Shown: piece after piece, positions 8,876 through 35,366 of the stretch
How positions within the stretch are numbered: the first letter of the stretch is position 1
Layout of the letters: the number at the start of each line of letters is the position of its first letter
Assembly: GCA_949152475.1 (NCBI GenBank)
Contig: OX424561.1
Location: 27,212,481 to 27,276,480 of the forward strand
Direction of reading: 5' to 3'
DNA length: 64,000 bases
DNA from: Terebella lapidaria
Taxonomy: Eukaryota > Annelida > Polychaeta > Terebellida > Terebellidae
Made by a program: the position numbers and the translations under genes
The notes under the pieces: model-generated
Databases searched by the model: none
Told to the model about the DNA's origin: nothing
The model's input: the letters and a program-made list of their open reading frames with translations, nothing else

Positions 8876-8998
8876 CACTGATGGTACCCGCGTCATAGAC
8901 CACTAATCCATTGCCTTTCCATTCTCTCGTCCATCGCCCACCTAGTACACAGTGATCACAGTGTCACATTGTACTGCAATATACACCTAGTAAAAGAG

Positions 8999-9678: not shown

Positions 9679-10482
9679 TACGGCGGCTCATATCTGCCAT
9701 GTAAAAAAAATCAACCAATAATTTCGAACACTTACAAAGTACATTTTGTGAAATACGTTCAGAACTCTACGAATCGATTCAAAACATTATGAACACGTTC
9801 GAAACATTTTGAACGCGTTCATAACATTACGAACGTGTTCAAAACATTATGAACGCGTTCAAAACATTATGAACGCGTTCATAACATCACGAGCGTGTTC
9901 AAAACATTATGAACGCGTTCAGAACATAATCAACGCGTTCAAAACATTATGAACACGTTCAAAACTTGATGAACGCGTTCAGAACATTACGAACGCGTTC
10001 AGAACATTTCGAACGCGTTCAAAACATTATGAACGCGTTCGAAGCATTATGAACGCATTCGAAACTTTATGAACGCATTCAGAACATTACGAACGTGTTC
10101 GATACATTACGAACGCGTTCAGAACATTACGAATGCGTTCTAAACATTATGAATGCATTCAAAACTTTATGAACGCCTTCAGAACATTACGAACGCGTTC
10201 GACACATTAGAACGCATTCAGAGCCTTTATCAAATACATGCAATCCTACTCTAGCTCTTATTCGAATACATTATCTACTTTCGTTTCAAATACGTTCGGT
10301 GTGTTCTGAACGCGTTCGTAATGTTCTGAACGCGTTCATAAAATTTCGAATGTGCTCATAATGCTTCGAAAGTTCTAAACGTATAGTTCTGTAAAGTTCT
10401 GAACGTATTTCGCAAAATGTACTTTGTAAGTGTTCAAAATTATTGGTTGATTTTTTTCAGATGGCAGATATGAGCCGCCGTA
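9679..10482. mobile_element. Fold-back element A with palindromic 20-bp repeats
   Basis: Inverted ends of about 89 bp begin TACGGCGGCTCATATCTGCC and match each other with few differences. The element is bounded by a 6-bp direct repeat GCGTTG (9673-9678 and 10483-10488). Other array units show the site without the element. The interior is some 20-25 copies of a ~20-bp unit close to GAACGCGTTCAAAACATTAT, whose core GAACGCGTTC is a perfect palindrome. A short non-repetitive segment lies near 10215-10290. No open frame of note. It shares its ends with the element at 34516-35360; superfamily unassigned. Confidence 0.85.
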
Positions 10483-12755
10483 GCGTTGGGCTGATTACGG
10501 TCGTACCTGTTTACGTGTATACACATGTAGGTAGCCTATACATGAAAGGATCAGCTGATTGATAGCGCTTGCCCCCTTACACTGATGGTCCCCGTGTCAT
10601 AGACCATTGCCTTTCCATTCTCTCGTCCAGTGCCCACCTAGCACACAGTGATGACAGTGTCACATTATACTGGAATATGCACCTAATAAGAATCATTTAG
10701 TTCAAGTCTGTATTCTTTGGTTGATAATTAACAAGTCTTCGTCTGGGTAGCCTACATGTACATGTATGTATAATGGGACTACGAGGAATGAGCTGATGTC
10801 CATTTGATGCCGCACATCTACATGTACCCGTGTAGGCCCTATATTTGGGCTCGAAATGCCATACCATTCACGTTAATCGGTTTAACAAAACATGTCCTAC
10901 AAACAGGAAAACGAGTATTGTGCCTGTGTCTGCAAGGGAGTTTATTCCTAACGTTCTTTATCTGTCTATATCAGTCTATATGCATTGTACCTTCTTTTAA
11001 GGCCGATATAATTAATGCACACTTACATGCACACCCTATCACAAAAAGTACACAAATACTCGTGCATTGGATGCAGGGAAGTTTGATTTACTTCAAGGAA
11101 AACTGCAAAATTTTATGTCGTTGATGGGAAGCCGCTATTGAATGCGAAACAGGTGCGCAATATATGCAAGTATGATTATCTTTCCACAATGTAAAAAAAT
11201 GCATTTCCTGTGGTGATAGTCGCGAATCTATGGGAGTAATTTACATGAGGAAACATATATTGTCAATATATATCTGGGTTGATCCATCTTCGGTGACATT
11301 GCACAATTTCGTGGCGTCTATTCATGTATTTTGCTTTGGCGATGGTTGTTGCAAATCAATACAGTTTATATTTCTTTAGGAAACTGGACAAAATATGTAT
11401 TTCTGGGAATCTGAAAATGGCGCTCGATGCTCTATTTATATACACATCATGAAAGTTTTGTGTAGCATTTGCATTACATGCCCAGTACATGCAAACTTAA
11501 TTTGTGAGAGTTGTATACTTTAGGTGTCCATGAAGTATATCTACACGCTCAAGGCAGTACAACTTGCCGGTTCACACCACAAGTGACCCGTGCATTGTTT
11601 GGTGCCTTTTTTCACGCACCCAATGTGCGAAGAGAATAGCGCGGGAAAAAAACTGCCATTATCCCACAGAGCCCATCCATTGTACTGCGGCTGTACTGAT
11701 ATGATCCGTGCTTTGATCTGTAAATACCGTGGTTATATTGACTACAGATTGTAGTCGGATGACGACATACCTCGAACAATTGGCAGAGGTCTGATGGGGG
11801 AAAACTGATCTCTACCTAGGGACATTGTCGACAGTTTACTGTCTCAAATGGCCCATTGTCCTGCAACCTTGTTTGGCTCTGATTTCGAGAAAATCACCAC
11901 ACGTCGGTGTCCCAAAATAGTATGACCCCAAGGGAGGGAGCGTGTTGCTATGGGCACATGGTTGATCTGAGGGTGATTGTCAGGAGCTACGGGCTGATTA
12001 CGGTCGTACCTGTTTACGTGTGTACACATGTAGGTAGCCTATATGTGAAAGGATCAGCTGGCTGATAGCACTTGTCTCCCTTAATTACACTGATGGTCCC
12101 CACGTCATAGACCACTAGTCCATTGCCTTTCCATTCTGTCGTCCATCGCCCACCTAGCACACAGTGATCACAGTGTCACATTATACTGCAATATACACCT
12201 AGTAAAAAATCATATAGTTCAAGTCTGTATTATTGGTTGATACTTAACAAGTCTTCGTCTGGGTAGCCTACATGTACATGTATGCATAATGGGACTACGA
12301 GGAATGAGCTGATGTCCATTTGATGCCGCAAGTCTACATGTACACGTGTAGGCCCTATATGGGATTGAAATGCCATACCATTCACGTTAATGGGTTTAAA
12401 AAAATCATGTCCTACAAACGAGTATTGTGCCTGTGTCTGCAATGAAGTTTAGTCGTACAGTTCTTTATCTGTCTTTATCTGTCTTACAGTTCTTCATCTG
12501 TCTATACGAACATGTGCCTTCTTTTATGGCCAGTATAATTGATGCACACTTACACGCACGCCCGTTCACAAAAAGTACATAAATAACGACCGTTCCTTGA
12601 TTACTCGTGCATTGGATGCAGGGAAGTTCGATTTACTTCCTAGAAAACTGCAAAATTTCACGTCGTTGATGGGTAGCCGCTATTGAATGCGAAACAGGTG
12701 CGCAATATATGCAAGTATGATTATCTTTCCACAATGTAAAAATGCATCTCCTCTG

Positions 12756-13824
12756 GTGATAATCGCGAATCTATGGGAGTAATTTACATAAGGAAACATG
12801 CTGTCAATATATATCCGCGTTGATCCATCTTCGGTTACATGGCACAATTTCATGGCGTCTATTCATGTATTTTGCCTTGACGATGGTTGTTGCAAATTAA
12901 TACTGTTTATACATGTATTTCCTCAGAAAACTGGACAAGACATGGATTTCTGGGAATCCGAAAATGGCTTTCGGTACTCTATTTATATACATAAAGAAGT
13001 TTTTGTGTAGCATTTGCAGTTGGTAGTGCATGTAAACATAATTTGTGAGAGTTGTATATATTTAGTGCCTATGCATGTAGTACGTATATATCTACTTGCT
13101 CTAGGCAGTACAATCTGCCGGTTCACACCGCAGGTGACCCGTACATTGTTTAGTGCCTTTTCCACATGCTCAATGTGCGAAGAGAATAGCGCGGGAAAAA
13201 GAGCCGCCATTATCCTGGAGAGCCCATCTATTGTATCCGAGCTTTGATCTGCAAATATCGTGATTATATTGACTATAGGTTGTAGTCGAATGACAGCATC
13301 CCTCGAACCATTGGCAGAGGTCTGATGGGGGAAAACTGGTCTCTACCTTGAAACATTGTCAACAGTTTAATCTCCCAAATGGCCCATTGTCCTACAGTTC
13401 ACACGTGCTGCCTTGTTTGACTCTCTGATTTCACGAATATCACCACACGTCGGTGTCCCAAAATAGTAATGACCCGAAGGGGCGTGGGGGTTGATCTGGG
13501 GTGATTTTCAGGAGCGGCGGGCTGATTACGGTCATACCTGTTTACGTGTATACATATGTACATGTAGGTAGCCTATATGTGAAAGGTTCAGCTGGCTGAT
13601 AGCGCTTGCCTCCCTTACACTGATGGTCCCCATGTCATAGACCACTTGTCTATTGCCTTTCCATTCTCTCGTCCAGTGCCCATCTTGCACACATCGTGAT
13701 TACAGTGTCACATTATACCAGATTATACACCTAGTAAAAAATCATATACATGTAGTTCATTTCTGTATTCATTGGATGATACATGTAGTTAACAAGTCTT
13801 CGTCTCGATACCCTACATGTATAC
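12756..13824 (+). repeat. Left copy of a 1069-bp direct repeat flanking the Penelope-like element
   Basis: This stretch of array DNA is repeated at 17027-18095 with only about three or four mismatches by eye, far closer than neighbouring units are to each other. It ends exactly where the Penelope-like element begins (13825). Confidence 0.88.
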
Positions 13825-13931
13825 TTTGGAGAGTATAAAAAATGCACTGGCACAAGATAATTGTAAGAGTAACACATAACATAAAACAGCAATAAAAATT
13901 CAATGAGCGACATTGAACAAAGTTTGTTGGA

Positions 13932-16109
13932 TTATTTAAGTTTGCTTCTGACTAAAAGTTCTTTAAGATTTTGATGCTTCTTGTAAGCTGTTGCTATTTT
14001 AATATCACCATCAGTATTTTTGTTGAGTTGTTTCATATGCTTTTTAACAATTTGGGCTGAAAGAGTACCTGTTTTTGAGAAGGGTACTATATACACCATG
14101 TCGAATTTATTTTTACTTTTGTTCAAAGGGTCATACTTTGTAAATTTTTGAACGTTGAGGCCATGAGGTTCGAAAGTGCCTAGAGTATCAATCCAACAAT
14201 ATTCCCTTTCAAGTCGCCATTGTTTGTTTAAAAGTTCATCACCAAGATCGGAAACCTGTTCAATTGGTAAAAGAGAAAAACATTCAATGGAAAATTCAGT
14301 TTTGCTGTGAAATTTAGATAGATGACTGTATAATGCATTTTCCTCATTGCAGCTAGTTATTGCAGCACGATGACGATTGTTTCTGAATTTGAGTGATTTA
14401 CCGGTTTCACCTACATATTGTTTTTCGCAAAGCTTACAAGTGTATAGATAAATTATATTTTCTGAGTTGCAATCCAAAGCTGAGTTGATTGAGTAGGTCT
14501 GTTCAAAAACTGATCCCGAGAAATTTTGACAATTTGGAACTAAATGACATGTCTGACATTGTCTAGAATTACAAGGTTTTGAGCCAGACGAGCTGGAAGT
14601 GGGCAATTGAAAATCAGCACCTAGTCTTTCCTCACTGTTCAAAATTCTCAATGTTTCATTCTTGATTTTGCGAAGCCAACGTTTTGAATAGTTACGTTTC
14701 GAAAGTGCCTTGAATAATATTTGACAAGCTGATTCAACATCATCTGGATATGAGCAAATTTGGAAAAATCGAAAAACTTGGGACTTGATTAGTCCTTTAT
14801 AAGTGTGTTTTGGATGAAAAGAGAGCTTATGCAACAACTGATGAGTATCCGTTGGCTTGAAGAAAACTTTTGCTTCTAATGTGTTTTCTTTGCTCCTGAA
14901 CAAAGTAGTATCCAAAAAATTAACTGAATCAGTACTAATTTCAGCTTTGAAGTTGATTGATGCCCTATGAGAATTGAAAATTTCGAGAAACTGGTGAAAT
15001 TTGGAAATGCCATGTGGCCAAATGAGGAAAATGTCATCTAAATACCTATAATAGCAATCTGGTTTGAATGGACACTTTTGTAAAGCTTGCTTTTCAAATT
15101 CAGCCATATAAATATCTGCATAATGAGGTGCATATTTCTGACCCATGGCTGTGCCTGAAACTTGTAGGAATGTCTTACCGTCAAATTCAAAGTCATTACA
15201 TTTAAGTGAAATTTCCAATAATTCTATTATACCTTTGAATAGTTCATTGTTTGCCAAAGTCGGGAATGCATTTTTAATTGCTTGGATACCTTCTTCATGA
15301 TTTATATTAGTATACATACTTTCAACATCTGAAGTGATTAGTAAAGAATTTGGATCTAGTTCAAGCCCTCTAACTTTATCTAAAAAGTCATACGTGTTTT
15401 TTATATATGACGGATGCTTATTTGCTTGATCTTTTATATATGAATCAATATACATAGCTACTTTTTCAGATTCACTGCTGCAGTCCGAAACAATTGGGCG
15501 CCCTGGAGGCATTACATTTGGAATTGGCCAGGAGTCTTTGGGTTTATGAATTTTAGGTAGCATATAAAATCTTCTTTGACGAGGGCGTTCTGGTGGTAAA
15601 AGAAATTGGAATACTTTTTCAGAAAGGCATCCAGAATTGCGTAATCCTTTTAAAATTTTTGTTATTTTTGCTGAATTTTCTAGGTAAAGAGGAGTGTCAA
15701 TTTCTCTGTAATGAGCTGGATTGTATAATTGACGAAAGCCTTCATTAATATAATTTTGCCTATCCATGATTACGACTGCACTACCTTTATCTGCTTTTTT
15801 AATTACCAAGTCTACGTTATTTTGTAAATTCTTTATAGTTTTATATTCCATTTTTGTTAGGTTTTTGGTTTCTGGTTGAATTTTCAAGTTTTCAATTTCC
15901 TTAGATATTGCCGAAATGCAATCTAAAACGGGCTTGTCAATCATGGAACTCGGTGGAGTCCAGGTAGATTTTGGAGTGAATTTTGATCTATTTGTGAATG
16001 AATTTGGACGGTGAGAAAAATAATTTTGAAGTTTGAGTTTTCTACCAAAATCTTGCACAGCTTGTTTAATTGGATCCAATGTTATTTTGGGTGTGGGAAC
16101 AAATGTCAA
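13932..16109 (-). CDS. Penelope-type reverse transcriptase with GIY-YIG endonuclease
   Basis: A 725-residue open frame. The N-terminal half has the PLE signatures KKADKGSAVVIMD (about 104-116) and FYMLPKIHKP (181-190). The RT core follows: motif A with Asp in SDVESMYTNI (260-269), motif B GTAMGQKYAP (319-328) and motif C YRYLDD (354-359). A Cys-rich segment CNSRQCQTCHLVPNC (513-527) precedes a GIY-YIG-like nuclease in which YLYTC...QYVGETG (554-570) replaces the canonical GIY-YIG pair; downstream R-rich and Glu (REYCW, ~635) residues complete it. PLE proteins copy their RNA at a nicked chromosomal target. The conserved N-terminal region appears to extend upstream of the first Met: the same frame is open back to about 16245 and reads SKFTLSDTQIALLNRGL just before it. 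The true start is therefore uncertain. No internal stop is seen. Confidence 0.95.
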   Translation of the reverse strand: MTFVPTPKITLDPIKQAVQDFGRKLKLQNYFSHRPNSFTNRSKFTPKSTWTPPSSMIDKPVLDCISAISKEIENLKIQPETKNLTKMEYKTIKNLQNNVDLVIKKADKGSAVVIMDRQNYINEGFRQLYNPAHYREIDTPLYLENSAKITKILKGLRNSGCLSEKVFQFLLPPERPRQRRFYMLPKIHKPKDSWPIPNVMPPGRPIVSDCSSESEKVAMYIDSYIKDQANKHPSYIKNTYDFLDKVRGLELDPNSLLITSDVESMYTNINHEEGIQAIKNAFPTLANNELFKGIIELLEISLKCNDFEFDGKTFLQVSGTAMGQKYAPHYADIYMAEFEKQALQKCPFKPDCYYRYLDDIFLIWPHGISKFHQFLEIFNSHRASINFKAEISTDSVNFLDTTLFRSKENTLEAKVFFKPTDTHQLLHKLSFHPKHTYKGLIKSQVFRFFQICSYPDDVESACQILFKALSKRNYSKRWLRKIKNETLRILNSEERLGADFQLPTSSSSGSKPCNSRQCQTCHLVPNCQNFSGSVFEQTYSINSALDCNSENIIYLYTCKLCEKQYVGETGKSLKFRNNRHRAAITSCNEENALYSHLSKFHSKTEFSIECFSLLPIEQVSDLGDELLNKQWRLEREYCWIDTLGTFEPHGLNVQKFTKYDPLNKSKNKFDMVYIVPFSKTGTLSAQIVKKHMKQLNKNTDGDIKIATAYKKHQNLKELLVRSKLK

Positions 16110-16210
16110 ACCACGATTTAGAAGAGCGATTTGTGTGTCCGAAAGTGTAAATTTGGAAAGGTTTACAACATTATTAGTCGTACTGGAGTTCGGTGGACTC
16201 TCAGAATGAT

Positions 16211-16972
16211 TTAGTTTAAATGACTGAGCCAGAATTTCAACATTTCATTGGCCGTTTGTTCAGTCCAATGAATGTTATCTGTCTGTGAAGAAAACTTGAT
16301 TGGATCCAACTGTTTAACAACTGTGAGATTGCTGAAACGTGAACTCATGTCATCCAAAGCCCTGTTAATCATATCCAAGTTGCGTTTCTCTACAGACGGA
16401 AGATTGTCTGAGTAGTTAATTTTTGGAATGAGAATTTTGGAGTGGGGGAAGATTCGGAAAGCACTGCTGAGCATATTCCTCAGTTCTGGAATTGAAGTAA
16501 CACTTGGTTTGGAGCTTCGATTGTTCAGGCCTACACTTAAGATTAAGTTTTGGGGGGCATCAAATGATTTTTTACAGGCCGTGAACATCATTCTTAGATG
16601 GTTGAACAAAGCTCCAGGATAAGACACAACTTGGATATCACTGACAGGGGATTTGATGATGCGAGAAAGGTTAGAAGAGCCGAGGATGACAGTGGAGGAG
16701 GTTAGTTTAGGAAGGGCCCAAAGAGTTTTGGGTCCTCTGATAGTGGAAGGAGAGACATGGAAAGTGGTGTTAGGAGAGTTTTTAGGAGAGACAAAGCGAG
16801 TGCGTTTGCCTTTGGGTAGAGAGGAGGGTGAGAGTTCAGGAGAAGAAGGAGAGCGCGGACGCCGTTTGGGCGTGGCACTAAGGCGGTTATCAGGAGAAGA
16901 GCGAGAGAGAGGTGGCCAATCATCAGATGATGATAGACAAGGAGGGTTAGAGAGGGTATCAAGGAGTTGGAA
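16211..16972 (-). CDS. SGNH/GDSL-hydrolase-like first protein of the Penelope-like element (5' partial)
   Basis: An open frame on the PLE strand directly upstream of the reverse transcriptase. It runs back to a Met at 17014, but those first ~14 residues are array DNA, so the real N-terminus is missing. The first ~100 residues are Ser/Pro/Arg-rich and probably disordered. Then come SGNH-hydrolase-like blocks: TVILGSSNLSR (block I, G-S-S-N where families have GDSN), LILSVGLNN (block III) and DNIHWTEQ (block V Asp-x-x-His). The usual block I Asp is Ser here, yet the presumed nucleophile Ser and the final Asp/His are present. Comparable esterase-like ORF1 proteins occur in some CR1-type LINEs. 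Function is inferred from these short motifs only. Confidence 0.7.
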   Translation of the reverse strand, partial: FQLLDTLSNPPCLSSSDDWPPLSRSSPDNRLSATPKRRPRSPSSPELSPSSLPKGKRTRFVSPKNSPNTTFHVSPSTIRGPKTLWALPKLTSSTVILGSSNLSRIIKSPVSDIQVVSYPGALFNHLRMMFTACKKSFDAPQNLILSVGLNNRSSKPSVTSIPELRNMLSSAFRIFPHSKILIPKINYSDNLPSVEKRNLDMINRALDDMSSRFSNLTVVKQLDPIKFSSQTDNIHWTEQTANEMLKFWLSHLN

Positions 16973-17026
16973 GATAATCGCGAATCTATGGGAGTAATTT
17001 ACATAAGGAAACATGCTGTCAATACT
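16973..17026 (+). repeat. 53-bp extra copy of array DNA at the 5' junction of the PLE
   Basis: Positions 16973-17025 repeat the first ~53 bp of the following 1069-bp repeat (the stretch GATAATCGCGAATCTATGGG onward), giving a short tandem duplication exactly at the 5' end of the element. Confidence 0.88.
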
Positions 17027-18095
17027 GTGATAATCGCGAATCTATGGGAGTAATTTACATAAGGAAACATGCTGTCAATATATATCCGCGTTGATCCATC
17101 TTCGGTTACATGGCACAATTTCATGGCGTCTATTCATGTATTTTGCCTTGACGATGGTTGTTGCAAATTAATACTGTTTATACATGTATTTCCTCAGAAA
17201 ACTGGACAAGACATGGATTTCTGGGAATCCGAAAATGGCTTTCGGTACTCTATTTATATACATAAAGAAGTTTTTGTGTAGCATTTGCAGTTGGTAGTGC
17301 ATGTAAACATAATTTGTGAGAGTTGTATATATTTAGTGCCTATGCATGCAGTACGTATATATCTACTTGCTCTAGGCAGTACAATCTGCCGGTTCACACC
17401 GCAGGTGACCCGTACATTGTTTAGTGCCTTTTCCACATGCTCAATGTGCGAAGAGAATAGCGCGGGAAAAAGAGCCGCCATTATCCTGGAGAGCCCATCT
17501 ATTGTATCCGAGCTTTGATCTGCAAATATCGTGATTATATTGACTATAGGTTGTAGTCGAATGACAGCATCCCTCGAACCATTGGCAGAGGTCTGATGGG
17601 GGAAAACTGGTCTCTACCTTGAAACATTGTCAACAGTTTAATCTCCCAAATGGCCCATTGTCCTACAGTTCACACGTGCTGCCTTGTTTGACTCTCTGAT
17701 TTCACGAATATCACCACACGTCGGTGTCCCAAAATAGTAATGACCCAAAGGGGCGTGGGGGTTGATCTGGGGTGATTTTCAGGAGCGGCGGGCTGATTAC
17801 GGTCATACCTGTTTACGTGTATACATATGTACATGTAGGTAGCCTATATGTGAAAGGTTCAGCTGGCTGATAGCGCTTGCCTCCCTTACACTGATGGTCC
17901 CCATGTCATAGACCACTTGTCTATTGCCTTTCCATTCTCTCGTCCAGTGCCCATCTTGCACACATCGTGATTACAGTGTCACATTATACCGGATTATACA
18001 CCTAGTAAAAAATCATATACATGTAGTTCATTTCTGTATTCATTGGATGATACATGTAGTTAACAAGTCTTCGTCTCGATACCCTACATGTATAC
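17027..18095 (+). repeat. Right copy of the 1069-bp direct repeat flanking the PLE
   Basis: Matches 12756-13824 at a constant offset of 4271 bp. After 18095 the normal array unit continues, whereas the left copy is cut by the element. Mismatches seen include ones near 17349, 17744 and 17991. Confidence 0.88.
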
Positions 18096-19540
18096 ATGTA
18101 CGCATGATGGGACTACGAGGAATGAGCTGATGTCCATTTGATGCCGCAAGTCTACATGTACACATGTAGGCCCTATATGGGCTCGAAATGCCATACCATT
18201 CACGTTTATGGGTTTAAAAAAATGTGCTAGTATGTTTTGTGCCTGTGTCTGCAAGGAAGTATGCCTTAACGTTATTTACCTGTCATATTCCTTTATGCAT
18301 GTACCTTCTTAAGTTTATTTGATTAATGCACACTTACACGTACACCCGATCTCAAAAAGTACATAAATAACGACCGTTCCTTGATTACTCGCACACTGGA
18401 TGCAGGGAAGTTCGATATACTTCGTAGAAAACTGAAAAATTACACGTCGTTGATGGCAAGCTGCTATTGAATGCGAAACAGGTGCGCAATATACATGATA
18501 TATGCAAGTATGATTATCTTTCCACAATGTAAAAAATGCATTTCCTCTGGTGATAGTCGCGAATCTATGGGAGTAATTTACATAAGGAAACAGGTAGCTG
18601 TCAGTATATATCCGCGTTGATCCATCTTCGGTGACATTGCACGATTTCATGGCGTCTTTTCGTGTATTCTGTCTTGGCGATGGTTGTTACAAATTTATAC
18701 TGTTTATATTTCCTCAGAAAACTGGACAAAATATGGATTTCTGGGAATCCGAAAATGGCGTTCGGTACTCTATTTATATACATATAAAGAAGTTTTTGTG
18801 TAACATTTGCAGTAGGTAGTGCATGTAAACATAACATTGTGTATATATTTAGTGCCTATGCAGTACGTATATATCTACTTGCTCTAGGCAGTACAATCTG
18901 CCCGTTTGCACCGCAGGTGACCCGAACATTGTTTAGTGCCTTTTCCACATGCTCAATGTGCGAAGAGAATAGCGCGGGAAAAAAACCGCCATTATACTGG
19001 AGAGCCCATCTATTGTATCCGAGCTTTGATCTGCAAATATCGTGATTATGTAATGACTATAGGTTGTAGTCGGATGACGGCATCCCTCGAACCAATGGCA
19101 GAGGTCTGATGGGGGGAAAACTGGTCTCTACCTTGAAACATTGTCAACAGTTTAATCTCCCAAATGGCCCATTGTCCTACAGTTCACATGTGCAGCCTTG
19201 TTTGGCTCTGATTTCACGAATATCACCACACGTCGGTGTCCCAAAATAGTAATGACCCCAAGGGAGCGAGCATGTTGCTATGGGCGTGGGGGTTGATCTG
19301 AGGGTGATTGTCAGGAGCTACGGGCTGATTACGGTCGTACCTGTTTACGTGTATACACATGTAGGTAGCCTACATGTATATGTGAAAGGTTCAGCTGGCT
19401 GATAGGGCTTGCCTCCCTTACACATGTTACACTGATGGTCCCCGTGTCATAGACCACTTGTCACTTGCCTTTCCATTCTCTCGTCCAGTGCCCACCTAGC
19501 ACACCGTGATAACAGTGTCACGTTATACTGGAATGTACAT

Positions 19541-20349
19541 TTAATAGAGGTCTCCATTCAGTATGTATGCCCTGCAGTTCTAATCGATAATTATGCCCCC
19601 GGTATCACTTTCTGGCCGTCTACTTAATCTGAATCCAGTCTATTATATCCCCTGTCCAGCGAGTGTCACAAGGTCGCTTTTCGCGTGGATCAAGGTACAA
19701 AGATTGTAGCACCTAATACCCCCTTGTAGTATGTCATGCTTAAAGGTTTTCTCTTTGAATTCATTTCCTCTATGATTATGTCATCTTTTTCCCACAGAGA
19801 CTCGCCTCTTTGTGTGTGATTCCCATTCATGTGCATTATATACTAGTATATTGTCCAGATACACAACTAGGGGATAGCGAAAACGAAAGCAAATTCACAT
19901 TCTGCAAAAAAAAAAATGGTTATAGATTTTATAGATTTGGCATACATGTACTCGATTAGATATTTGAATTGATACGATTCTTAAATGCGGAAATAAGTTT
20001 GGAGTCAATGTGGAAATAAATTTTCACATTTTATGTTCATGTTCTTCTCATGAGCATCGTCAGAAAAAAAAGTATTTTTGTTTGGTCACCTGTACCAAAG
20101 ACCCTCTATACTACATATAGAGGTAGTGTTTACCTGTAAACCAGGACCGCGGGATAATCATTTGATATAGATCCAGAACCCTCGGCCTTTAAAAAAAACT
20201 ATTGCAGCATTTGTTGGTAGATGTTGTAAAATAACTGTAAATGCGGAAAAAACTGTTATTATATACACGTAAGCATGTGCATGTACTGGTATTTTTTGTG
20301 CAATTTACACGTCAACTAATGGTGTCTCCTTTCTCTTTGTTTCCTCCAG
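19541..20349. other. Non-repetitive DNA upstream of the first visible HHAT exon
   Basis: No recognisable gene or element. Probably intron: it ends in a pyrimidine-rich tract and CCTCCAG acceptor just before 20350. I could not find further HHAT exons here. Confidence 0.5.
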
Positions 20350-20385
20350 GTATTTTGACCGAGGTCTTCATGCTTTTCTCACACG
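20350..20385 (+). CDS. HHAT: HHAT-like acyltransferase, 36-bp microexon with the catalytic Asp
   Basis: Preceded by TTTCCTCCAG and followed by GTAAGT, the exon reads (one base of a split codon) YFDRGLHAFLT plus the first two bases of an Arg codon. That matches the animal HHAT segment YFDVGLHNFLIR. HHAT is a multi-pass ER/Golgi MBOAT enzyme that transfers palmitate to the N-terminal Cys of Hedgehog ligands. The Asp of YFD corresponds to the active-site Asp339 of human HHAT. The intron to the next exon (20386-23839) is phase 2. The N-terminal ~330 residues must lie upstream and were not found in this window. Confidence 0.85.
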
Positions 20386-26490: not shown

Positions 26491-27630
26491 ATGTTTCGGT
26501 TGCTGCTACCTTTCATCGCTATTGCGGGTAGGCATCTGACAATTAATGTATGACCGCAAATTATTTCCATACTTAGGTATTGCAGTAAAAGAGAAAATGA
26601 AATAATAATCGAACACATAATATTATTCGTGAATTTGTCACGACGCAGCTATTTTCAATTAGGAAAGCAGTTGATATTCATGTGTTTTGCAGTGGTCAAT
26701 TCCCAGGGCATCACCCAGGATTGTCTCGACTGTATAAGACAGGTACAATGCGATGAAATACATTTTTACATGAAATCTGCTGTGAAGATTCGTCTTATGC
26801 GTATGAATAACTCTAATATTGAACTCTATCGATAGAACGTTCAAGATTATACACATACACCTAAATGGGAGTTGTCTCATAGGCCCTACATGTAATTGAG
26901 CCGCATTGGACACCACAAGTCTACCATTTACATGTACCTACACTAATTTTTCTCTCGCTTCAAACCCAAATTTTGTCTTTGTTAATTGGCCAAAGTTTCC
27001 CGTGCAGCAGTAGGCTAATGTCCATTCCAGACGGAGGGAGGACAGGAAGGCGAGTGTAACTGGGATGTGTACTCGGACAGCTGTGGACCCTTCCAGATCA
27101 AGATAGAGTACTGGTGTGACGCCAACTGGATCGATCCTTCCGATTGCACGACCGCGAACTATGACCAAGGTTCAACAACGATTGTATCTGCTGATCATAG
27201 TGTTATTCCGTGATGTACTGTATAGTGTAGTTTCATGTACTGACACCGGAGGCCCCTGCAACCCTTGTGCTTCTGAATCAATCCAGATCACAGTTTAATT
27301 TGGACCTCGCAATGATATTTCGCTTGTGCTTTAGTATGGTGAAGCTGCATCCGTGTAATGCTGATGTAACAATGCACATACTTGTACATGTAGCTTACTG
27401 TGATCCCAACAGAGTGGCGAGACTGTACGATGTACCTCGCTTGTTCCGAGGACACTGTACGAGGATACATGGACCGTTACGGCACCTGGTGTTCTGGAAT
27501 GCCGAGTCCCACGTGCGAGGTGTACTCACGAGTACATAACGGAGGGCCTTCCGGCTGTACCTGCTCCTGTACGGACGGCTACTGGGCAATCGTCGAGGGC
27601 TGCTGTGCTGGAAAGTCCAACTGTGCTTGA
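26491..27630 (+). CDS. i-type lysozyme (destabilase-like) gene 1, four exons
   Basis: Exons 26491-26527, 26693-26742, 27031-27169 and 27413-27630 join in frame to about 147 residues. Exon 1 gives a signal peptide (MFRLLLPFIAIA). Exon 2 gives ITQDCLDCIRQ, exon 3 TEGGQEGECNWDVYSDSCG then PFQIK and YWCD, and exon 4 WRDCTMYLACSED, YMDRYG, VHNGGPSGC and TDGYW. This is the invertebrate-type lysozyme fold. The catalytic Glu (TEGG) and Asp (NWDV) that match Glu18 and Asp30 of the clam Tapes enzyme are both present. The family motif CxxCIC is CLDCIR here, so one conserved Cys is replaced by Arg, although extra Cys pairs occur near the C-terminus. Predicted secreted bacterial cell-wall (peptidoglycan) hydrolase, possibly with isopeptidase activity. 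The exon 3 donor is weak (CAAG|GTTCAA). It lies within an HHAT intron, same strand. Confidence 0.92.
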
Positions 27631-27677
27631 GCGTGCAGTATTTTGACATAAGGCGAAATGTAGTGGATTCTTTTGCC

Positions 27678-27683
27678 AATAAA
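27678..27683 (+). promoter_or_regulatory. Polyadenylation signal AATAAA of lysozyme gene 1
   Basis: AATAAA 48 bp after the stop codon, with a second ATAATAAA near 27697. Confidence 0.65.
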
Positions 27684-27699
27684 ACGAAATTTTATATAA

Positions 27700-29101
27700 T
27701 AAACGCTGACGTTGTTTTCATATAATGGTCAATATCATAAGACAAGTGTGTTAATCATTCTTTTCAGACATACACAATAACAGTTCCTGGCGATTCAGCT
27801 ACGTTGTGTTTTTGAGAATATATATGGTTCGTTTCTTTGAGTTCAGAGCAACCATTTCAGAAGTTTGAGATCAATGCCGATAACTCGCGCCTTTTGAAAT
27901 GTCCCGAACGTGAAATGAACTTAACGAAGGAACATCACTCGAGAAGCCGCCATGAGCTAGACGTAAGATGTGATATATGAATAACACCCTAGTTTCCTCG
28001 TGGGAGCCATGCCTTTACAGGCTACCCGTCCATGAATGATGGCTTGTCAAGTCGCGCCTCACTTCGAGGCATGGGGCGCACTAATCTGTCCTGTCCAGGA
28101 ACTGGAGCTGGGGGGAGAATTAATTGGCAAAAAGTCGTCGCGTCGTTAGTCAAAGCATGCAATCTTGTGATAATAGTACGTACTTGGGTAATACCATTTC
28201 TCGTTAGGCAAGACAATACCGCGTATCATGCAAGTTACCACAACGCCTTGAATATCAATCAGTCAATCAACTTAATTATTTGAAAAATCGGTGGAAAAAT
28301 ACACAAACGATATACATTTGTTAACATAAGAATGCATCTATTATTGAAATTGTATATTTAGTGTTACGTGTATAAGTCAGGACGATGACTGTGGTACCTG
28401 TGGAGGTATATTGATTTGTTGTATAAACTTCGTCGTTACATGTGTTCCAAAAGCGGTCAATTGCATCGATTGCTTATGTACATTCAGAAGACGTAGACAA
28501 ACAGCATCAGCCTTTTCACGTATCAGATATATGCGTGAAACCACACCCACATATCCCTGGCATCCGATTGTGCTTTCACTAGCGGTAGAGTCAATGCTTA
28601 GAAACATGTGTGAATAATTACGAGAACATACATAACTATGTAATTTTGGTTTGTTCTGAAGTGGTGAAGATGATATTGATGATTTCGGTCGTTGTTTTGC
28701 TGGTTTCTTCATGTTTGTCAGTGTTACGCGTGCCTTGACGGTCAGGACTTTTAGTGTGTGATTGAGATAAATGGCGCTTCCTGTGATTAAATCTCACATT
28801 TGGTTTGTTCACCTATATCTTCATACATGTACGAGTTTATGTTTTGGAATGTTTTGATGGAATGATTAATTCTGAACAATAAAACGTGCTAATCATGGGT
28901 TATTGTAATTACCAGTCCCGTTGATATTTTCAGTTTGTACTAAGAATTCCCAGGTGTTGAATACGAGTAACTTACATGTATACGAAGATTTAGCATTCAG
29001 TAGATTATGTATGTGCTTCTTGGCTGCTACCATCAAATGTCTGCAATAGTGTGTCCATGCGGATTTGCACTGTGCTACAAAGTACAATGTATTGTTGCAA
29101 T
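27700..29101. other. Spacer between the two convergent lysozyme genes
   Basis: No exon or complete element recognised. The inverted symmetry of the two genes does not extend into it: the sequences after the two stop codons do not match. Confidence 0.5.
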
Positions 29102-29149
29102 CAGGGGCGGATCTAGGATTTTTTTCAGAATGGGGGGGGGGGGGGGGGG
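29102..29149 (+). mobile_element. End fragment of a hAT-like MITE next to poly-G
   Basis: CAGGGGCGGATCTAGGATTT followed by a long G run. The matching but diverged inverted end (poly-C then ATCCTATACCCACCCCTG) is at 32072-32112. CAGGGGCGGATC-type ends are typical of hAT elements. The two ends may belong to different copies. Confidence 0.45.
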
Positions 29150-29235
29150 CAATAACAAAGTCGTACATGTATTTCTGGCACAGACATGGATCTGGCCAAA
29201 ATATTAACCACCAGAGCAATAGACAGTTAATTTTT

Positions 29236-29241
29236 TTTATT
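29236..29241 (-). promoter_or_regulatory. Polyadenylation signal AATAAA of lysozyme gene 2
   Basis: On the minus strand AATAAA occurs only 28 bp after the stop codon of gene 2. Confidence 0.55.
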
Positions 29242-29269
29242 TCGTCGCTGACTACAGGTCATGTTATGC

Positions 29270-30301
29270 TCAAGCACAGTTGGACTTTCCAGCACAGCAG
29301 CCCTCGACGATCGCCCAGTAGCCGTCCGTACAGGTGCAAGTACAGCCGGACGGCCCTCCGTTATGTACTCGTGAGTACACCTCGCACGTGGGACTCGGCA
29401 TTCCAGAACACCAGGTGCCGTAACGGTCCATGTACCCTCGTACAGTGTCCTCGGAACAGGCGAGGTACATCGTACAGTCTCGCCATTCTGTCGGGATCAC
29501 AGTACAATGATACAATCACCATTGAACGGATGTAGATTTACAATTCAGAAATGGTAGGAAACAATACTGTGCCAAATTGAAGCTATTGTTACCAGGAGCC
29601 CAAGAGGCGATATGGGTTTCAGTTTTACATGTAACTGAATAAAAACGATATATTTCAGTTGAGTCTTTCGTACATCTTGGAGCGTTTCGTTACATACCTT
29701 GGTCGTAGTTTTCTGGTGTGCAGGTACTGGGGTCGATCCAGTTGGCGTCACACCAGTACTCTATCTTGATCTGGAAGGGTCCACAGCTGTCCGAGTACAC
29801 ATCCCAATTACACTGGCCTTCTTGCCCTCCCTCCGTCTGGAACAAACAATTAGTTCATTTTTGTACTGAGACAGTATCCTACATGTATGTGGTCGAAAAT
29901 GCGAAAAGATTCAAATGATTTCACTGCATTACTACATGTAGATGTACGTGTACAATGTTTGCTGAATCTGTTCCAACAACAACTTGGAGTTTTATCGTGA
30001 TACTTAGTCGATACCTGTCTGATGCAATCCATACAGTCTTGGGTGATTTGAGCACCGGCCACTGAAAAGGAATGGAACGACTCACCATCAAGCACAAAAT
30101 CTGCACAATATCTGTCCTGGCCGGGAAATTACATTTTACTATTTGCATTGTAAGTGTTAATCATTATTTCCCACGTGTACGGGTTTTTTTTCATCGAGAT
30201 CAACGACATGCACCTAAAAGTATTATTCTCAGTAATTCTCAAAAAGTTTTGTGAAAATGTATACCCGCAATGGCGAGGAAAGGTAGAATCACTCTCAACA
30301 T
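29270..30301 (-). CDS. i-type lysozyme (destabilase-like) gene 2, four exons
   Basis: Minus-strand exons 30301-30265, 30061-30015, 29836-29698 and 29487-29270 give about 146 residues with the same exon phases as gene 1 (37, 47, 139 and 218 bp). It starts MLRVILPFLAIA (signal peptide) and continues ITQDCMDCIRQ, TEGGQEGQCNWDV, SCGPFQIK, YWCDANWIDPSTC. Exon 4 is nearly identical to gene 1, with one amino-acid change (Ser to Thr in the CTC[S/T]CTDG stretch). Catalytic Glu and Asp are retained. All splice sites are canonical, including a strong exon 3 donor (GTATGT) where gene 1 is weak. It is tail-to-tail with gene 1 and antisense to HHAT. Predicted secreted antibacterial or digestive muramidase. 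Confidence 0.92.
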
Positions 30302-30651
30302 GGCCGATGATTTGTTCTCGCTTGCAATTCAAGAACTGAAGTATGAGAGGAATATGGCTATCAGTTTGTAGGCGCTATTAGCGATGATATACAATGGTAT
30401 GCACAAAAGATAATTGTATTATCTCTACAAGGTCAGCTCTGCTCGAGCAGTTTGATATACGAAAAAAAGAGGTCACGCTTGACTTCTGTTGTTTTCTCAG
30501 GACGCTCTCATGTTAAATGAATGTACATGTACATAAAACAAACGATATAAATACAGTATCATTTGTAACTGTGTCATCTTTTTAAAACATTTAACATTTG
30601 ATTCCATGCATCTCCTCTCTCACCCCCCCCCCCCCCACCGCCTCCCCCCAG
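30302..30651. other. HHAT intron end with long poly-C tract
   Basis: Lysozyme 2 upstream region followed by a CCCCCC...ACCGCCTCCCCCCAG acceptor. The pyrimidine tract is almost entirely C, including an uninterrupted run of about 15 C. Confidence 0.6.
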
Positions 30652-30796
30652 GACAAGACCCTAGGCCCCCGCTGGAGCCGCCGACTACACGCGCTGCTCT
30701 CCGTGCCTCTCCTCGCCATGTCAGCGCTCGCCATCTTCTACTTTTTCGGGGGCCGCCGCGTGGGAAACGTTTTCGTTCAGCGGCTCATCGTGGACG
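30652..30796 (+). CDS. HHAT: HHAT-like acyltransferase, penultimate exon
   Basis: After CTCCCCCCAG the exon encodes 48 residues: DKTLGPRWSRRLHALL, a transmembrane-type segment LLAMSALAIFYFFGG, then VGNVFVQRLIVD and the first base of a Gly codon. This follows the animal HHAT C-terminal region (SPQARRRFHAAL...NLVFLGGNEVG...). The donor is G|GTGGGT. The exon is more G+C-rich than its surroundings. It joins in frame to the last exon at 36011 across an intron full of repeats. Confidence 0.9.
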
Positions 30797-31249
30797 GTGG
30801 GTAGATTGAAATATCCCATTAATAAAAGAGATAATCAAAGTTTGCAGACTCCAGGCCCGCCCCCCTCCAAAAAAACAGAAGGAAAAAGAGAAGAAGAAAA
30901 AAAGAAGGAAAGGGGGAAAAAGAGAGGGGAGGAAGTGTTTTCAAGATAAATTTCACCGGGAAGTAGCTTTAACTTCTGGGGCCCCATGTCGCGAGCAGTG
31001 TATTCACTCTATAGCCAACCCACTTGTTCTCAGTGAAAGCACTTCATGCCCTCCACCTTCTATAAATTCACCTTCTAAAAATTTGAGAATATTGAATGGC
31101 CAAATGCACTTAATCCTTTGATGGGGTCCAAAACCAAGTAATATTTTATGTCATATTTTGTTTCAACTACAGTGATCATGCATTTATGGGTGTTAAGAAA
31201 TGCTTGATAGTTAGACTCAGGAAAACTCTGGGATGCTGTATTAGGCACG
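30797..31249. other. HHAT intron, purine-rich then repeat-related
   Basis: Contains a 100-bp AGAAGAAAAA/GGGGAAAAAGAG purine tract near 30872-30935 and a weak relative of the following minisatellite near 30967. Confidence 0.5.
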
Positions 31250-32050
31250 CGAATACCGCCAGCTTCTGGGCCCCTTCAGCGGGCCCCAGACCCCCGGCCG
31301 ACACGGGCTTGCTTCAACTTGCTTAACAACATTTCAGAACTAGGCTTTCCCTCAAAATCCTAGATTTGCCTGAATCAGCCATGCATACACTCTTTAGGGG
31401 GATGGGAGATGGACTAAAGAAAACCTATAAAACACACCACTGCATATCCCTTCAGCTTCTGAGGTTCTCAAGCGGGTCCCAGATTCTTGATCTTCACCAC
31501 CTTGCTTCACGACATTTCATATCTTGGCCTTCCTTCTGAACCCTGAATTCACTCAAGATCAGGTATTCATAAACTCTCAAAGGCCATGGATATTGGACCA
31601 AGGAGAGCCCTAGAACACATCATTGGGGATGCATAAACCTTCAGCGTTTGGGGCCCTTGAGCGGGCCCCACACCCTAGGCCGACATGGTCTTGCTTCACC
31701 TGGCTTAGTAACATTTCACAAATGGGTCTTCCCTCAAATGTCAAATCTGCTCCGAATTAGCCATGCAAAAATTCTTAGGGGGTGGGTGATGGACAAAAAG
31801 AAACCTAGAAAAAAAACACCACTGGGCATGCATATCCCTTTAGCTTCTGGGGCCCTTAAGCGAGCCTCAGATCTTCGGCCTTCGCCAACTCGCTTCGCAA
31901 CATTTCATATCCTGGCCCTCCGTCAGAACCCTCGATCCACTCCAGATTAGGCATTCATAAACTCTCCAAGGCCATGAAATTGGTCCAAGGAGAGCCCTAG
32001 AACACACCATTGGGGATGCATAAACCTTCAGCGTCTCGGGCCCTTGAGCC
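31250..32050 (+). repeat. Minisatellite of ~193-bp units alternating in two forms
   Basis: The word GGGCCC(C)TT.AGCGGG and relatives recur near 31260, 31452, 31642, 31838 and 32026. Odd and even units differ consistently ('CCGACA.GG.CTTGCTTCA' versus 'CTTC.CCA.CT.GCTTC'), so the true period is a ~385-bp dimer, about two copies. It lies in the last HHAT intron. No coding function seen. Confidence 0.75.
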
Positions 32051-32071
32051 CGCTATGTCGACCAAATGTTT

Positions 32072-32112
32072 GCCCCCCCCCCCCCCCAAAAAAAATCCTA
32101 TACCCACCCCTG
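32072..32112 (-). mobile_element. Inverted hAT-like MITE end
   Basis: Poly-C, poly-A then ATCCTATACCCACCCCTG: the reverse complement of the end type seen at 29102. It directly abuts the end of the minisatellite. Confidence 0.4.
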
Positions 32113-32544
32113 GACTCTTCGCGGGCATCACCTTCTTGTGTTGCCCATCATACACAATATTTTCGAATCCTACGAATGGGCCTACACGTGCCTGTATCAT
32201 GAAACCTTGATCTTTGACCTTGAAACTCCACACAATACTTAGGCTACACCAGAGACCTATGTTTAACAGTCTGTTTTCATTAAATCGCTGATGGCGGATG
32301 TACTGTATGTACTTCCTTTCAAGTCATGTTCCAATACTCATGCTCACTGATATGTTCTATGCTCTATGCCGTTACATGTTCTGAATTCGGATATATGTGT
32401 ATATACATGTATATATAATGGGATATCAGACACACACACACGTACATGTATTGCTGAAATCTTACCTTCTCTTTCGATTCGGACGCACTACGTTGCCTAG
32501 TGGGAACGGTCTCATATATAAACGGTGCGAGCGTTTAGGAGTTT

Positions 32545-33655
32545 TTATCTTACCGGCCCATATCGGCCGATAAGCTATTGTCGTAGTTTTTCGTCCGTCG
32601 TCCGTCCGGCAAATAACTTTTTGCCTTGATGAATTTTCCTGAAAGTTTACGAAAACATTCCTTGGGCTGATACCCTGAGACGTTTTTTTCATTCAATCGT
32701 TCTTGCCGATTTGGCGGCCATTTTTCTGACTTTGGTGGCCATTTTCTCAAAAAGTGTCTGATAAGTTTTGATATTTTTGTTTTAGAACATTCCTCGCGTG
32801 TACCTACCTCTATGACGTGTATAAGTTTTGTTGCTCTTGAATCGCTAGTCTGCGTGTGGCGGCCATTATGATTTTTTGATGGGTCGGCGAAAAAATATTT
32901 GTTTTGTCCCAAATCAAGTCACTATTCGTTTTGAGCCATTTTCAGCAAAATGAAGAATTTTTTTTCGGCCTCTCAAAAATTTGTTGGACTTCATGAGTAG
33001 CTTTGCGGAGTAAACTCCTAGAACACTTGAAAATAAAGCTTAAGTATTGGGACAATCAAATGGGAATTCATTTTATTGCAGTTTGAATTGTGACATTAAA
33101 TTAGATCCTTAATGACCTTGGAAGGTCAAAACGACCTTTTTTGTCGAAAAAAATGATGATTTTTATCTGATGGCCGTTTTCTCCAAATCTATTCAACAGT
33201 TTTCCTCAGAATCATGCATCAGATTCTCCTTATGTACCTTTGTGATGTGTATAACTTATTTTCTTTTAAATCGACGGTCCGCATGTGGCAGCCATTTTAA
33301 TTTTTTGATGGGTCGGCAAAAATTTTCTTGTCCCAAATCATGTCACTGTTCGTTTTGAGCCATTTCCGGCAAAATAAAAAAAAATTGGCCATTGAATTTT
33401 TTTTTTGAAAATCTTCCATAATGGGAGATTTACGGAGTAAACTCCCAAAACACTTAAAAATAGAACCTAAGTACTGGCACATTCAATTGGGAAATTTCGA
33501 AAGAATGGCTGTTTTTTTCAGCCATTCTCTCAAAATCTATTCAGACAATTTTCCTCAAAATGCATAAGATCTTCCCTATGTGCTTTTGTGATGTGTATGA
33601 GTTTTGTTGCATTTAAATCGACTGTTTGTGGATATAACTAATTACCGAAAAAACT
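32545..33655 (+). mobile_element. Relative of the AGGTTACCGG Helentron-like elements
   Basis: Begins with palindromic CGGCCCATATCGGCCG and GTCCGTCGTCCGTCC. It shares phrases such as GGCGGCCATTTTCTCAAAAA and 'TGTATAA.TT.GTTGC.CTTGAATCGC' with 37200-37440. Two ~425-bp tandem segments are visible (GATGGGTCGGC near 32879 and 33307; GGAGTAAACTCC near 33008 and 33434). The right boundary is unclear. No coding capacity. Confidence 0.55.
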
Positions 33656-34509
33656 TCCAAAATTGTAGCTTGATTTCGTATTTTAGTCTATGGAGAAAAT
33701 GAGTGTTTGGCAATATTTACGAACATCTTTTGAGAATAGATTTGAAGATCGGTGTACGATTTATGTTTTGGAAGATCAATATTCTGTGTATTCTCATGAT
33801 CTGCCGGTAAGCCACAGCACCCTTGGTGCTATGTTTGTCTTCTTTTACCATTTTGACGCTCTTTTGTACCAATGACGTGTTATGAATTCGAAATTTGCAT
33901 TGGTACAAATATATGCATTATGTGCAACCCAACAGCACGTTGCATAATGATAACAAGATAAACTAAGTTACAAGCAGAATAATTCAAGAGATATAGCCAT
34001 CAAAATTCACAAACCCACTCATAAATTCAGAGGCATGTCAGTTTATCATCAGCCAGCCTATTGTTTTGCAAAAGAGGATTACCACATGCGCATATGTAGT
34101 CGTCATTATTGATAATGTAGATATGTTAATATGTAAATAATGACACAGCATGGTATTGGAAACTAAATTCAGTCGACTGTATACATACTATACAAACTGT
34201 AATGCATGAGCGAATGAGTTTTCGAGATATTTCTTTGAGGATATTCTGAAGTTTGGTCACGTTTCTCCGTAAGAAACATTGTTGTCTCTGTCATTTCCAA
34301 TGATTCACACTTTCTATCCAAGGTTTGCATTAGTATAAAATAGTACTATGAACTGAAACGTCATAATTTATGGCCCACTTCGTCAGAAGTACTAGTAACT
34401 ACATGTGTCGTTGACATCTCAAATTGTACGGTATATTTTGAGCGCTATTAAATTGGAATGTGTGCACGCAAAACTACTGTTCATTATAAAATTTTCAGAT
34501 ATTACGAGA
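33656..34509. other. HHAT intron, nothing recognised
   Basis: A+T-rich unique sequence without element ends or exons that I can support. Confidence 0.45.
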
Positions 34510-34515
34510 GAAAAC

Positions 34516-35360
34516 TACGGTGGCTCATATTCGCCAGATGGAGGAATGCACATTTTTCTTTACAGCGTTATAACGCTGTAATACAGCGTAATAACGCTCT
34601 AATTAACAGCGTAATATCGCTCTAATTTACAGCGTAATAACGCTCTAATTTACAGCGTAATTATGCTGTAATACAGCGTTATAACGCTGTAAATTAGAGC
34701 ATAATTACGCTGTAAATTAGAGCGTTATTACGCTCTATTACAGCGTTATAATGCTCTATTACAGCGTTATAACGCTCTAATTTATAGCGTAATTACGCTC
34801 TAATTTACAGCGTAATTACGCTCTAATTACAACGTTAATACGCTGTATTAGAGCGTTATTACGCTGTAATTTAAGCGTAATTACGCTGTATTAGAGCGTT
34901 ATAACACTCTAATTTACAGCGTAATTACGCTCTAATTAGAGCGTCATTACGCTGTATTAGAGCGTTATTACGCTGTAATTAGAGCGTAATTACGCTGTAA
35001 ATTACAGCGTAATAACGCTCTAATACAGTGTAATAACGCTCTAAATTACAGCGTAATAACGCTCTAAATTACACTGCGAGAGACATCATCGGACCTGCTG
35101 GTTCATCAGCTCAATCATATGAAGGGAAATCTCAAAATTACTCTGATCTAGATATGTTTATTATAAATCACGACATTGGAAATATGATGGGAAGGTGAAC
35201 GGTTCAATTTAGAGCGTAATAACGCTCTAAATTAGAGCGTTATAACGCTGTAAATTAGAGCGTTATAACGTTGTATTACAGCGTTATTACACTGTAATTA
35301 GAGCGTTATAACGCTCTAAAAAATGTGTGCTCCTCTATGTGGCGAATATGAGCTTCCGTA
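34516..35360. mobile_element. Fold-back element B with palindromic AGCGTTATAACGCT repeats
   Basis: Inverted ends begin TACGGTGGCTCATATTCGCC on the left and TACGGAAGCTCATATTCGCC on the complement of the right. They extend about 42 bp and are bounded by a 6-bp direct repeat GAAAAC (34510-34515, 35361-35366). The interior is a dense field of ~20-22-bp units built on AGCGTTATAACGCT and TACAGCGTAATTACGCTCTA variants, each self-complementary. A non-repetitive island of about 140 bp (about 35071-35210) interrupts the field. Ends and target-duplication length match element A at 9679-10482. Inserted in the last HHAT intron. Confidence 0.87.
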
Positions 35361-35366
35361 GAAAAC

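Follow-up and report, generated by a model that had tools for sequence, protein, structure and literature searches.

Two fold-back elements of Terebella lapidaria are probably non-autonomous members of different IS3EU families, each filled with an array of its own lineage

In a 64,000-nucleotide stretch of the genome of the annelid Terebella lapidaria (here called the window; contig OX424561.1, C7:27212481-27276480 of a 761.6-Mb genome), two short elements, the 804-bp element A (9679-10482) and the 845-bp element B (34516-35360), combine related ends with repetitive interiors that fold back on themselves. On the strength of their ends and target-site duplications, both almost certainly belong to the IS3EU superfamily of eukaryotic cut-and-paste DNA transposons. 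The two probably represent separate IS3EU families, as non-autonomous fold-back elements whose interiors are the subterminal arrays of their respective lineages. The arrays are best explained as putative transposase binding sites, a reading that we regard as reasonably likely. An original prediction, made from the letters of the window, had assigned the elements to no known superfamily and had proposed that the interior of a single family is exchanged or regrown while the ability to fold persists.

Anatomy of elements A and B

Both elements are bounded by related 21-bp ends, with exact 6-bp direct repeats flush outside them: GCGTTG for A (9673-9678 and 10483-10488) and GAAAAC for B (34510-34515 and 35361-35366). 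The element coordinates, shared ends, and perfect duplications given in the original prediction were correct. Element A opens with the IS3EU-type end TACGGCGGCTCATATCTGCCA (9679-9699, plus strand), which is the start of a long inverted arm of 92 nucleotides (9679-9770, plus strand) that is 95% complementary to 10391-10482; this right arm, on the minus strand, terminates in the right 21-bp end (10462-10482). Between the arms lie a 20-bp array of 22.2 copies with the core GAACGCGTTC (9778-10220, plus strand), a stretch in which no array was reported (10221-10292), and a short array of 2.2 copies in the opposite orientation (10293-10337, minus strand). Element B consists of the left end TACGGTGGCTCATATTCGCCA (34516-34536, plus strand), a 22-to-23-bp quasi-palindromic array of 23 copies (34560-35073, plus strand), a 135-bp inter-array stretch (35074-35208), a second array of 5.0 copies (35209-35320, minus strand), and a right end (35340-35360) that reads TACGGAAGCTCATATTCGCCA on the minus strand. 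This right end had been given as TACGGYGGC and reads TACGGAAGC instead. The inter-array stretch of B recurs nearly unchanged, as judged by eye, in a B-type copy elsewhere (L036, locus bases about 8780 to 8960).

Alignment of A with B was confined to the terminal 21 bp, of which 18 were identical, in agreement with the claim that the two interiors are unrelated. The claim of a repeat unit of about 20 bp held for A (20 bp) and not for B (22 to 23 bp). Each unit had also been described as its own reverse complement; a dyad is present, but the units are only quasi-palindromes, with circular dyad scores of 0.80 for A and of 0.82 and 0.96 for the two B arrays. As single strands, folded with DNA parameters, both elements outperformed 20 dinucleotide shuffles (z = -25.9 for A and -33.8 for B). 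Both have the traits of the Foldback structural class, being non-autonomous, carrying long inverted repeats made of tandem repeats, and folding back, and their description as mobile elements with related ends and fold-back anatomy was supported.

Genome copies and length of the target-site duplication

When up to 3 mismatches were allowed, the end pattern matched 5190 places in the genome (2570 + 2620) versus 66 (31 + 35) for a reversed-pattern control, which is beyond chance; this count spans several related families and not A and B alone. More specific patterns with the same tolerance recovered 346 B right ends and 39 A ends. A BLAST search with a subterminal stretch of A returned at least 44 matches at 89 to 100% identity, with 40 of them covering at least 97 of the 112 bases (40 of 61 candidates scored). 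The 346 B right ends, set against 39 A ends and at least 44 BLAST matches, indicate that the A family is small and the B family larger.

Twenty-seven non-redundant pairs of adjacent ends were collected from the window and from sampled genome loci, after removal of pairs with identical flanks; the count was limited to ends with an adjacent partner 100 to 4000 bp away. An exact 6-bp duplication was present in 18 of the 27 pairs, and at least 5 of the 6 positions matched in 23, whereas no pair had an exact duplication of 3, 4, 5, 7, or 8 bp directly abutting the ends. Shuffling of the right flanks gave a mean of 0.66 exact 6-bp duplications and a maximum of 5 over 1000 trials. Copies across the genome thus showed a consistent 6-bp duplication, as the original prediction had supposed. 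From the window alone a duplication of 7 or 8 bp had been possible, since AGCGTTG and AGAAAACT are repeated as well; the genome sample fixes the length at 6 bp. Each of the 27 pairs carried a single unit type, which was that of A in 4 pairs and that of B or a B-like one in 23.

Several individual copies were observed in unusual settings. At L032:938-2949, a B-type element is nested in the end of another B-type element with the duplication AATATG, which is part of the host end; both insertions at this locus retain exact 6-bp duplications. On C4, three B-type left ends (24004123, 24007070, and 24010022) have the identical flank CTTTAC at a spacing of about 2.95 kb, and a B element seems to have been caught there in a tandem duplication. 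A second A-type end pair, at C7:27205307-27206497, lies outside the window, about 16 kb before its element A.

Assignment to the IS3EU superfamily

According to published descriptions, TA..TA termini are a constant feature of complete IS3EU families, most of which also have 6-bp duplications (PMC10045372), and TET-bearing fungal IS3EU elements have the ends TAYGG..CCRTA (PMC12730594). Such termini were present in both window elements and in three transposase-bearing elements, all three with exact 6-bp duplications. The superfamily is recognized in the literature by TAYGG..CCRTA ends combined with a 6-bp duplication, and A and B are placed in IS3EU on this basis. The superfamily that had been thought unassignable is therefore indicated by the ends and the duplication length, and an open reading frame (ORF) for an integrase-type transposase matching the domain rva_4 lies beside a copy of the B end.

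The search lead for the transposase was rva_4 (PF24764). This profile gave at least 133 matches in the genome, with open frames of up to 484 amino acids (aa) (150 of 246 candidates scored). Eight transposase loci were examined (L051 to L058, L057 together with its neighbor L060); rva_4 was matched by all eight proteins, and rve was also matched by six of them at E values of up to 1. In the alignment of the eight proteins, D131, D190, and E230 (L057 numbering) are invariant and are candidates for the catalytic triad. An HHCC zinc motif is absent ahead of the core, with no invariant Cys and no invariant pre-core His in this alignment, in which L055 lacks its N-terminal part. Two other assignments were rejected. 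For hAT, including the hAT6 type with a 6-bp duplication named in the available part of PMC12730594, the ORF beside the B end is rva_4, and no hAT domain was found in the eight proteins at E values of up to 1. For a Mutator-type Foldback element, which would have an 8-to-10-bp duplication, the length found here is 6 bp, with none of the 27 pairs exact at 8 bp (lengths of 3 to 8 bp counted).

A candidate full-length partner of element B

At one transposase locus, L057/L060, a 366-aa rva_4 ORF (1556-2653, minus strand; 93 bits) is accompanied by an array of the B type that starts about 0.8 kb 5' of the ORF (first half-site at 3428) and extends to a B right end, followed by CTATAC. The end adjoining this ORF is identical to the right end of the window's B, and over the first 160 bp, 143 of 158 aligned positions are identical to those of the window's B. 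The combination of CTATAC and a B left end occurs exactly at four places in the genome, one of which, at C3:30141275, is on the required strand and side; by simple arithmetic, the chance of a correctly placed combination is about 1.6e-4. Joining this left end to the right end of L057/L060 delimits a 27,661-bp element, C3:30141281-30168941, with the duplication CTATAC. The L057 protein has a single genome place at 100% identity, and the next best is 54% identical (112 of 250 candidates scored). By these features L057/L060 is a candidate autonomous element of the B lineage.

Some observations count against pairing the window elements with full-length relatives. The 27.7-kb element was examined over its right 3.9 kb only, and it contains an L056-type end (3 mismatches) at C3:30148427; because of this inner IS3EU-type end, the length of 27,661 bp is probably inflated by nested insertions. 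The original prediction had suggested a search for an autonomous copy with these ends, and the candidate found concerns B only: examination of the 39 pattern ends and 44 BLAST matches against transposase places revealed no full-length A element, and the nearest known transposase place is 96 kb from any of 48 A-type places (the lists of 48 A-type, 113 transposase, and 99 HECT places used here and below were compiled by hand, with fragments of already listed loci omitted). Two longer copies were rejected as autonomous, L031 (3.6 kb) having no open frame of more than 152 aa and L036 (3.0 kb) none of more than 102 aa, each with an insert that looks foreign by eye.

Arrays beside transposase genes and inside other IS3EU-type ends

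Tandem arrays accompany the transposase genes of other lineages as well. In L051, the left end TACGGTGGCTGATATATGCCA is followed by 12.4 copies of the 20-bp unit ATTAAATACGCGTACTTAAT and then by a 421-aa ORF; the right end, with the matching duplication CTATGG, is at C1:52953024, giving a total of 10,319 bp. In L056, 36 copies of the 21-bp unit TAAGTCGATATTATCGAGATA lie between the ORF and the end TACGGAAGCGTAGAAGGGCCA, and a left end (1 mismatch) with the matching duplication CATACG gives a length of 8,998 bp. A 20-bp array of 41 copies is situated 74 bp 5' of the ORF in L052, and a 22-bp array of 2.4 copies is at the 5' edge of the open frame in L058; the array-to-ORF distance in L051, L052, and L056 is 42 to 74 bp. 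An array was therefore 5' of the ORF in five of the eight transposase loci (L051, L052, L056, L058, and L057/L060), and in three of these (L051, L056, and L057/L060), it was seen between the gene and the element end. Two 20-bp arrays without a known transposase, with the cores CAGCTG (L019/L040, one locus) and GATGCATC (L031), also lie inside IS3EU-type ends, so that with L051 and L056 four further unit types occur within such ends in this genome. At three further ends, periodicity at a lag of 20 was best at L040:1556 (minus strand; 0.39), and L040:313 and L038:3035 (both plus strand), at which lag 20 was not above other lags (about 0.3), gave no support.

These arrays bear on the proposal that one family keeps its ends and swaps or regrows its interior. 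The ends of A and B do differ at only 3 of 21 positions. However, no alignment between A and B extends past 21 bp, the subterminal stretch and unit of B match those of its own transposase-bearing locus, and the A-type copies recovered by BLAST retain a subterminal stretch of their own. Moreover, no end pair mixed unit types. The unit of B already occurs next to the transposase gene in the candidate autonomous element of that lineage, and other IS3EU-type ends enclose four additional unit types. We therefore consider an exchange of interiors within one family to be highly improbable.

A different possibility is that the arrays are sites for a host protein, such as a silencer or enhancer beside the transposase promoter. 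All five arrays found beside transposase ORFs are 5' of the ORF, as this explanation would have it, but the units differ between most lineages, unlike the targets of one host factor, and we judge it to be quite unlikely.

Pitch, dyad symmetry, and divergence of the units

Of the 56 arrays whose start lies within 200 bp of an end, on its inner side, 45 had a period of 20 to 23 bp, versus 10 of 36 arrays elsewhere (each place counted once), and 4 of those 10 are IS3EU arrays too. Because most of the 56 arrays are B copies, the independent count is six families, namely, A, B, L019/L040, L031, L051, and L056. Tested against shuffled letters, the unit had a significant dyad in A (P = 0.007), in B (P = 0.004 and 0.0005), in L057 (P = 0.006), and in L051 (P = 0.005). 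A dyad at P < 0.05 was present in 26 of 31 element-type array units, compared with one (L031) of 16 control arrays; without L031 and L019, it was present in none of the remaining 14.

Similarity between units was examined in 28 unit pairs, with P values uncorrected. The closest pair of transposases, those of L056 and L058 (59% identical), have similar units (P about 0.003), whereas the units of L057 and L056, with 50% identical transposases, are unlike (P = 0.6); L051 and L052 (44% identical) have weakly similar units (P = 0.03). Among units without a known transposase, that of A is weakly similar to that of L051 (P = 0.03; ACGCGT in common), and that of L019 is similar to that of L031 (P = 0.007).

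Neutral expansion was also considered, in which a short subterminal repeat grows in non-autonomous copies through replication slippage and unequal exchange and has no function. The copy number of the B array does vary, from 12.1 units in L001 to 38.2 in L025, and internal tandem repeats and emerging satellites have precedents among fold-back elements, as in Tetris (PMC4079207). Under this explanation, however, the recurrence of the same place, the 20-to-23-bp pitch, and the usual dyad across unrelated units would be a repeated coincidence, and it appears unlikely.

Folding or binding

If folding itself were selected, hairpins would promote small-RNA production, excision, or amplification coupled to replication, and changes in the interior sequence would be tolerated. 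In line with this, A and B fold very strongly as single strands, and different families have unrelated units, most of them with a dyad. Covariation was examined among B units collected with one regular expression, which misses more diverged units; because the units are related copies, the covariation P value is not a true probability. The variable position pair 4/19 was self-complementary in 147 of 462 units and not in 315, below independence (odds ratio, 0.20), which speaks against selection for folding and against the original suggestion that the ability to fold is what persists. The unit center was symmetric in 272 of the 462 units and not in 190, with mild coupling toward pairing (odds ratio, 1.8), which favors folding. 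The covariation result weakens a role for hairpins but does not abolish it. Most B units have either one polarity or the reverse-complementary one, and L057/L060, which holds the transposase ORF, carries the same polar unit; hence the asymmetric unit seems ancestral, and folding of the whole element would then arise from the inverted orientation of its arms. A dyad is weak or absent in L052, and a near-constant 20-to-23-bp pitch is unnecessary for folding. Selection for folding is, in our estimation, an improbable explanation.

The persisting traits are instead position, a 20-to-23-bp pitch, and, usually, an approximate dyad, which fit binding sites better than hairpins; the two-turn pitch, the dyads, the place beside the transposase gene, and the lineage-specific sequence favor protein sites. 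Weighing against an interpretation of the arrays as transposase sites are the following. The dyad was mild in L056 (P = 0.03) and L058 (P = 0.035), was not significant in L052 (P = 0.37 to 0.38), and failed the test in two of four A-type rows from other copies (P = 0.06 and 0.16), and with 26 of 31 units it is not universal. L031 and L019 (P = 0.21), first counted as controls, turned out to lie inside IS3EU-type ends. No such array was found in the flank examined in three of the eight transposase loci (L053 to L055), and L051 and L056, like the 27.7-kb element, were examined only in part. On the protein side, HTH_21 was matched by one of the eight transposases (E = 0.013), a weak resemblance to a helix-turn-helix (HTH), and a search of solved structures with the 8-protein profile yielded no relative (best E value, 0.72).

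We propose the following mechanism. A transposase supplied by a full-length relative would cut at TACGG..CCGTA and insert with a 6-bp staggered join. Transposase-bearing IS3EU loci of this genome, in five of the eight examined, carry 5' of the gene a tandem array with a 20-to-23-bp, usually dyad-symmetric unit that differs between most lineages. Element B is built almost wholly from sequence of its own lineage, namely, its ends and its array, and A would be built likewise from a lineage for which the search yielded no full-length member. The arrays would most likely be clustered sites for the transposase or for a dimer of its HTH-like N-terminal domain; the two-turn spacing would put all sites on one DNA face, and the dyad would suit a dimer. 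A position 5' of the gene would permit self-regulation too. A copy consisting mostly of array would capture more transposase, and fillings would in this way grow and differ between families. Hairpin folding may then simply result from the inverted orientation of dyad units, without having to be a target of selection. As an observation by eye, the 21-bp end of A, B, and L051 holds an imperfect dyad, (T/C)GGC-N8-GCCA, and the outermost site, within this end, may also be a two-fold binding site.

More tentatively, it is conceivable that each IS3EU lineage bears a private, fast-changing address tag, a dyad array of two-turn pitch that adjoins the transposase gene and is recognized by its own transposase only. 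Non-autonomous copies would then win by turning into almost pure tag. Unit turnover would outpace the enzyme, the units being unrelated at 50% and alike at 59% transposase identity (one pair each), and with such turnover the tags would record an arms race over who mobilizes whom.

Comparison with known systems

As in the elements described here, the accessible accounts of IS3EU/GingerRoot report TAYGG..CCRTA ends, a 6-bp duplication, non-autonomous relatives, and an integrase-type DDE transposase without an HHCC motif (PMC10045372, PMC12730594). Unlike in those accounts, fold-back copies made of 20-to-23-bp quasi-palindromic arrays, and arrays 5' of the gene, are found here; the words "subterminal" and "HECT" are absent from the main texts of both papers. 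Galileo, a Drosophila element of the P superfamily, likewise has long, internally repetitive terminal inverted repeats (TIRs) that resemble Foldback, and it has several binding sites for its THAP transposase, two of them further in, within the tandem repeats of the TIRs, according to the portions available (PMC3688188). Galileo belongs to another superfamily with another transposase, and binding was measured there and is proposed here; the term "palindrom" does not occur in the main text of that paper. It is the nearest tested precedent for transposase sites in tandem repeats. Tetris, related to Foldback, is also non-autonomous, with long TIRs containing internal tandem repeats and with ends common to another element that the same transposase is believed to mobilize; it differs, in the sections available, in its 8-to-10-bp duplications, its assignment to Mutator by the authors, and its units of about 220 bp (PMC4079207). 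Oyster satellites resemble the present arrays as scattered tandem repeats linked to mobile elements, and two Crassostrea gigas satellites are annotated IS3EU, but their units are 690 and 129 bp, and palindromic 20-to-23-bp units are not described in the part available (PMC8268682). No description of fold-back or palindromic-array IS3EU elements was found in the open-access literature searched, as far as its accessible text extends.

With this assignment, two puzzling hairpin elements gain a superfamily, and B also gains a candidate full-length partner. Unrelated minisatellites inside related transposons become readable as lineage-specific subterminal arrays. Since this one genome harbors several IS3EU lineages that differ in array and transposase, divergence of transposase-end specificity is directly testable, and the same setting makes testable why fold-back elements fill up with repeats.

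Companion genes and other features of the window

Matches to HECT, a ubiquitin ligase domain, were found near IS3EU transposases: 28 of 99 were within 10 kb of one of 113 transposase places, with 0.29 expected by chance, and 27 of those 28 were convergent with the transposase. One example, L059:495-1166 (minus strand), lies inside the 10.3-kb L051 element; no HECT match was listed inside the 27.7-kb and 9.0-kb elements. IS3EU of this genome seems often to be a two-gene element, with a transposase and a HECT-like ORF. Alpha-kinase, which TET-bearing fungal IS3EU members carry according to the available part of PMC12730594, was rejected as a companion gene here, where it had a single genome match, outside the three located elements.

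Other mobile sequences and repeats are present in the window. A 770-aa reverse-transcriptase ORF (RVT_1) occupies 13932-17041 on the minus strand, after a 276-aa ORF without a Pfam match; by eye, the C-terminal part of the 770-aa ORF resembles what we take to be a GIY-YIG nuclease, presumably as in Penelope-like elements. Two separate arrays, at 693-1871 and 37524-38851, have a closely similar 134-bp tandem unit. At 53929-54414 and 61572-62213 (minus strand) lie a reverse-transcriptase fragment and a Tc1-like transposase fragment (HTH_Tnp_Tc3_2), respectively.

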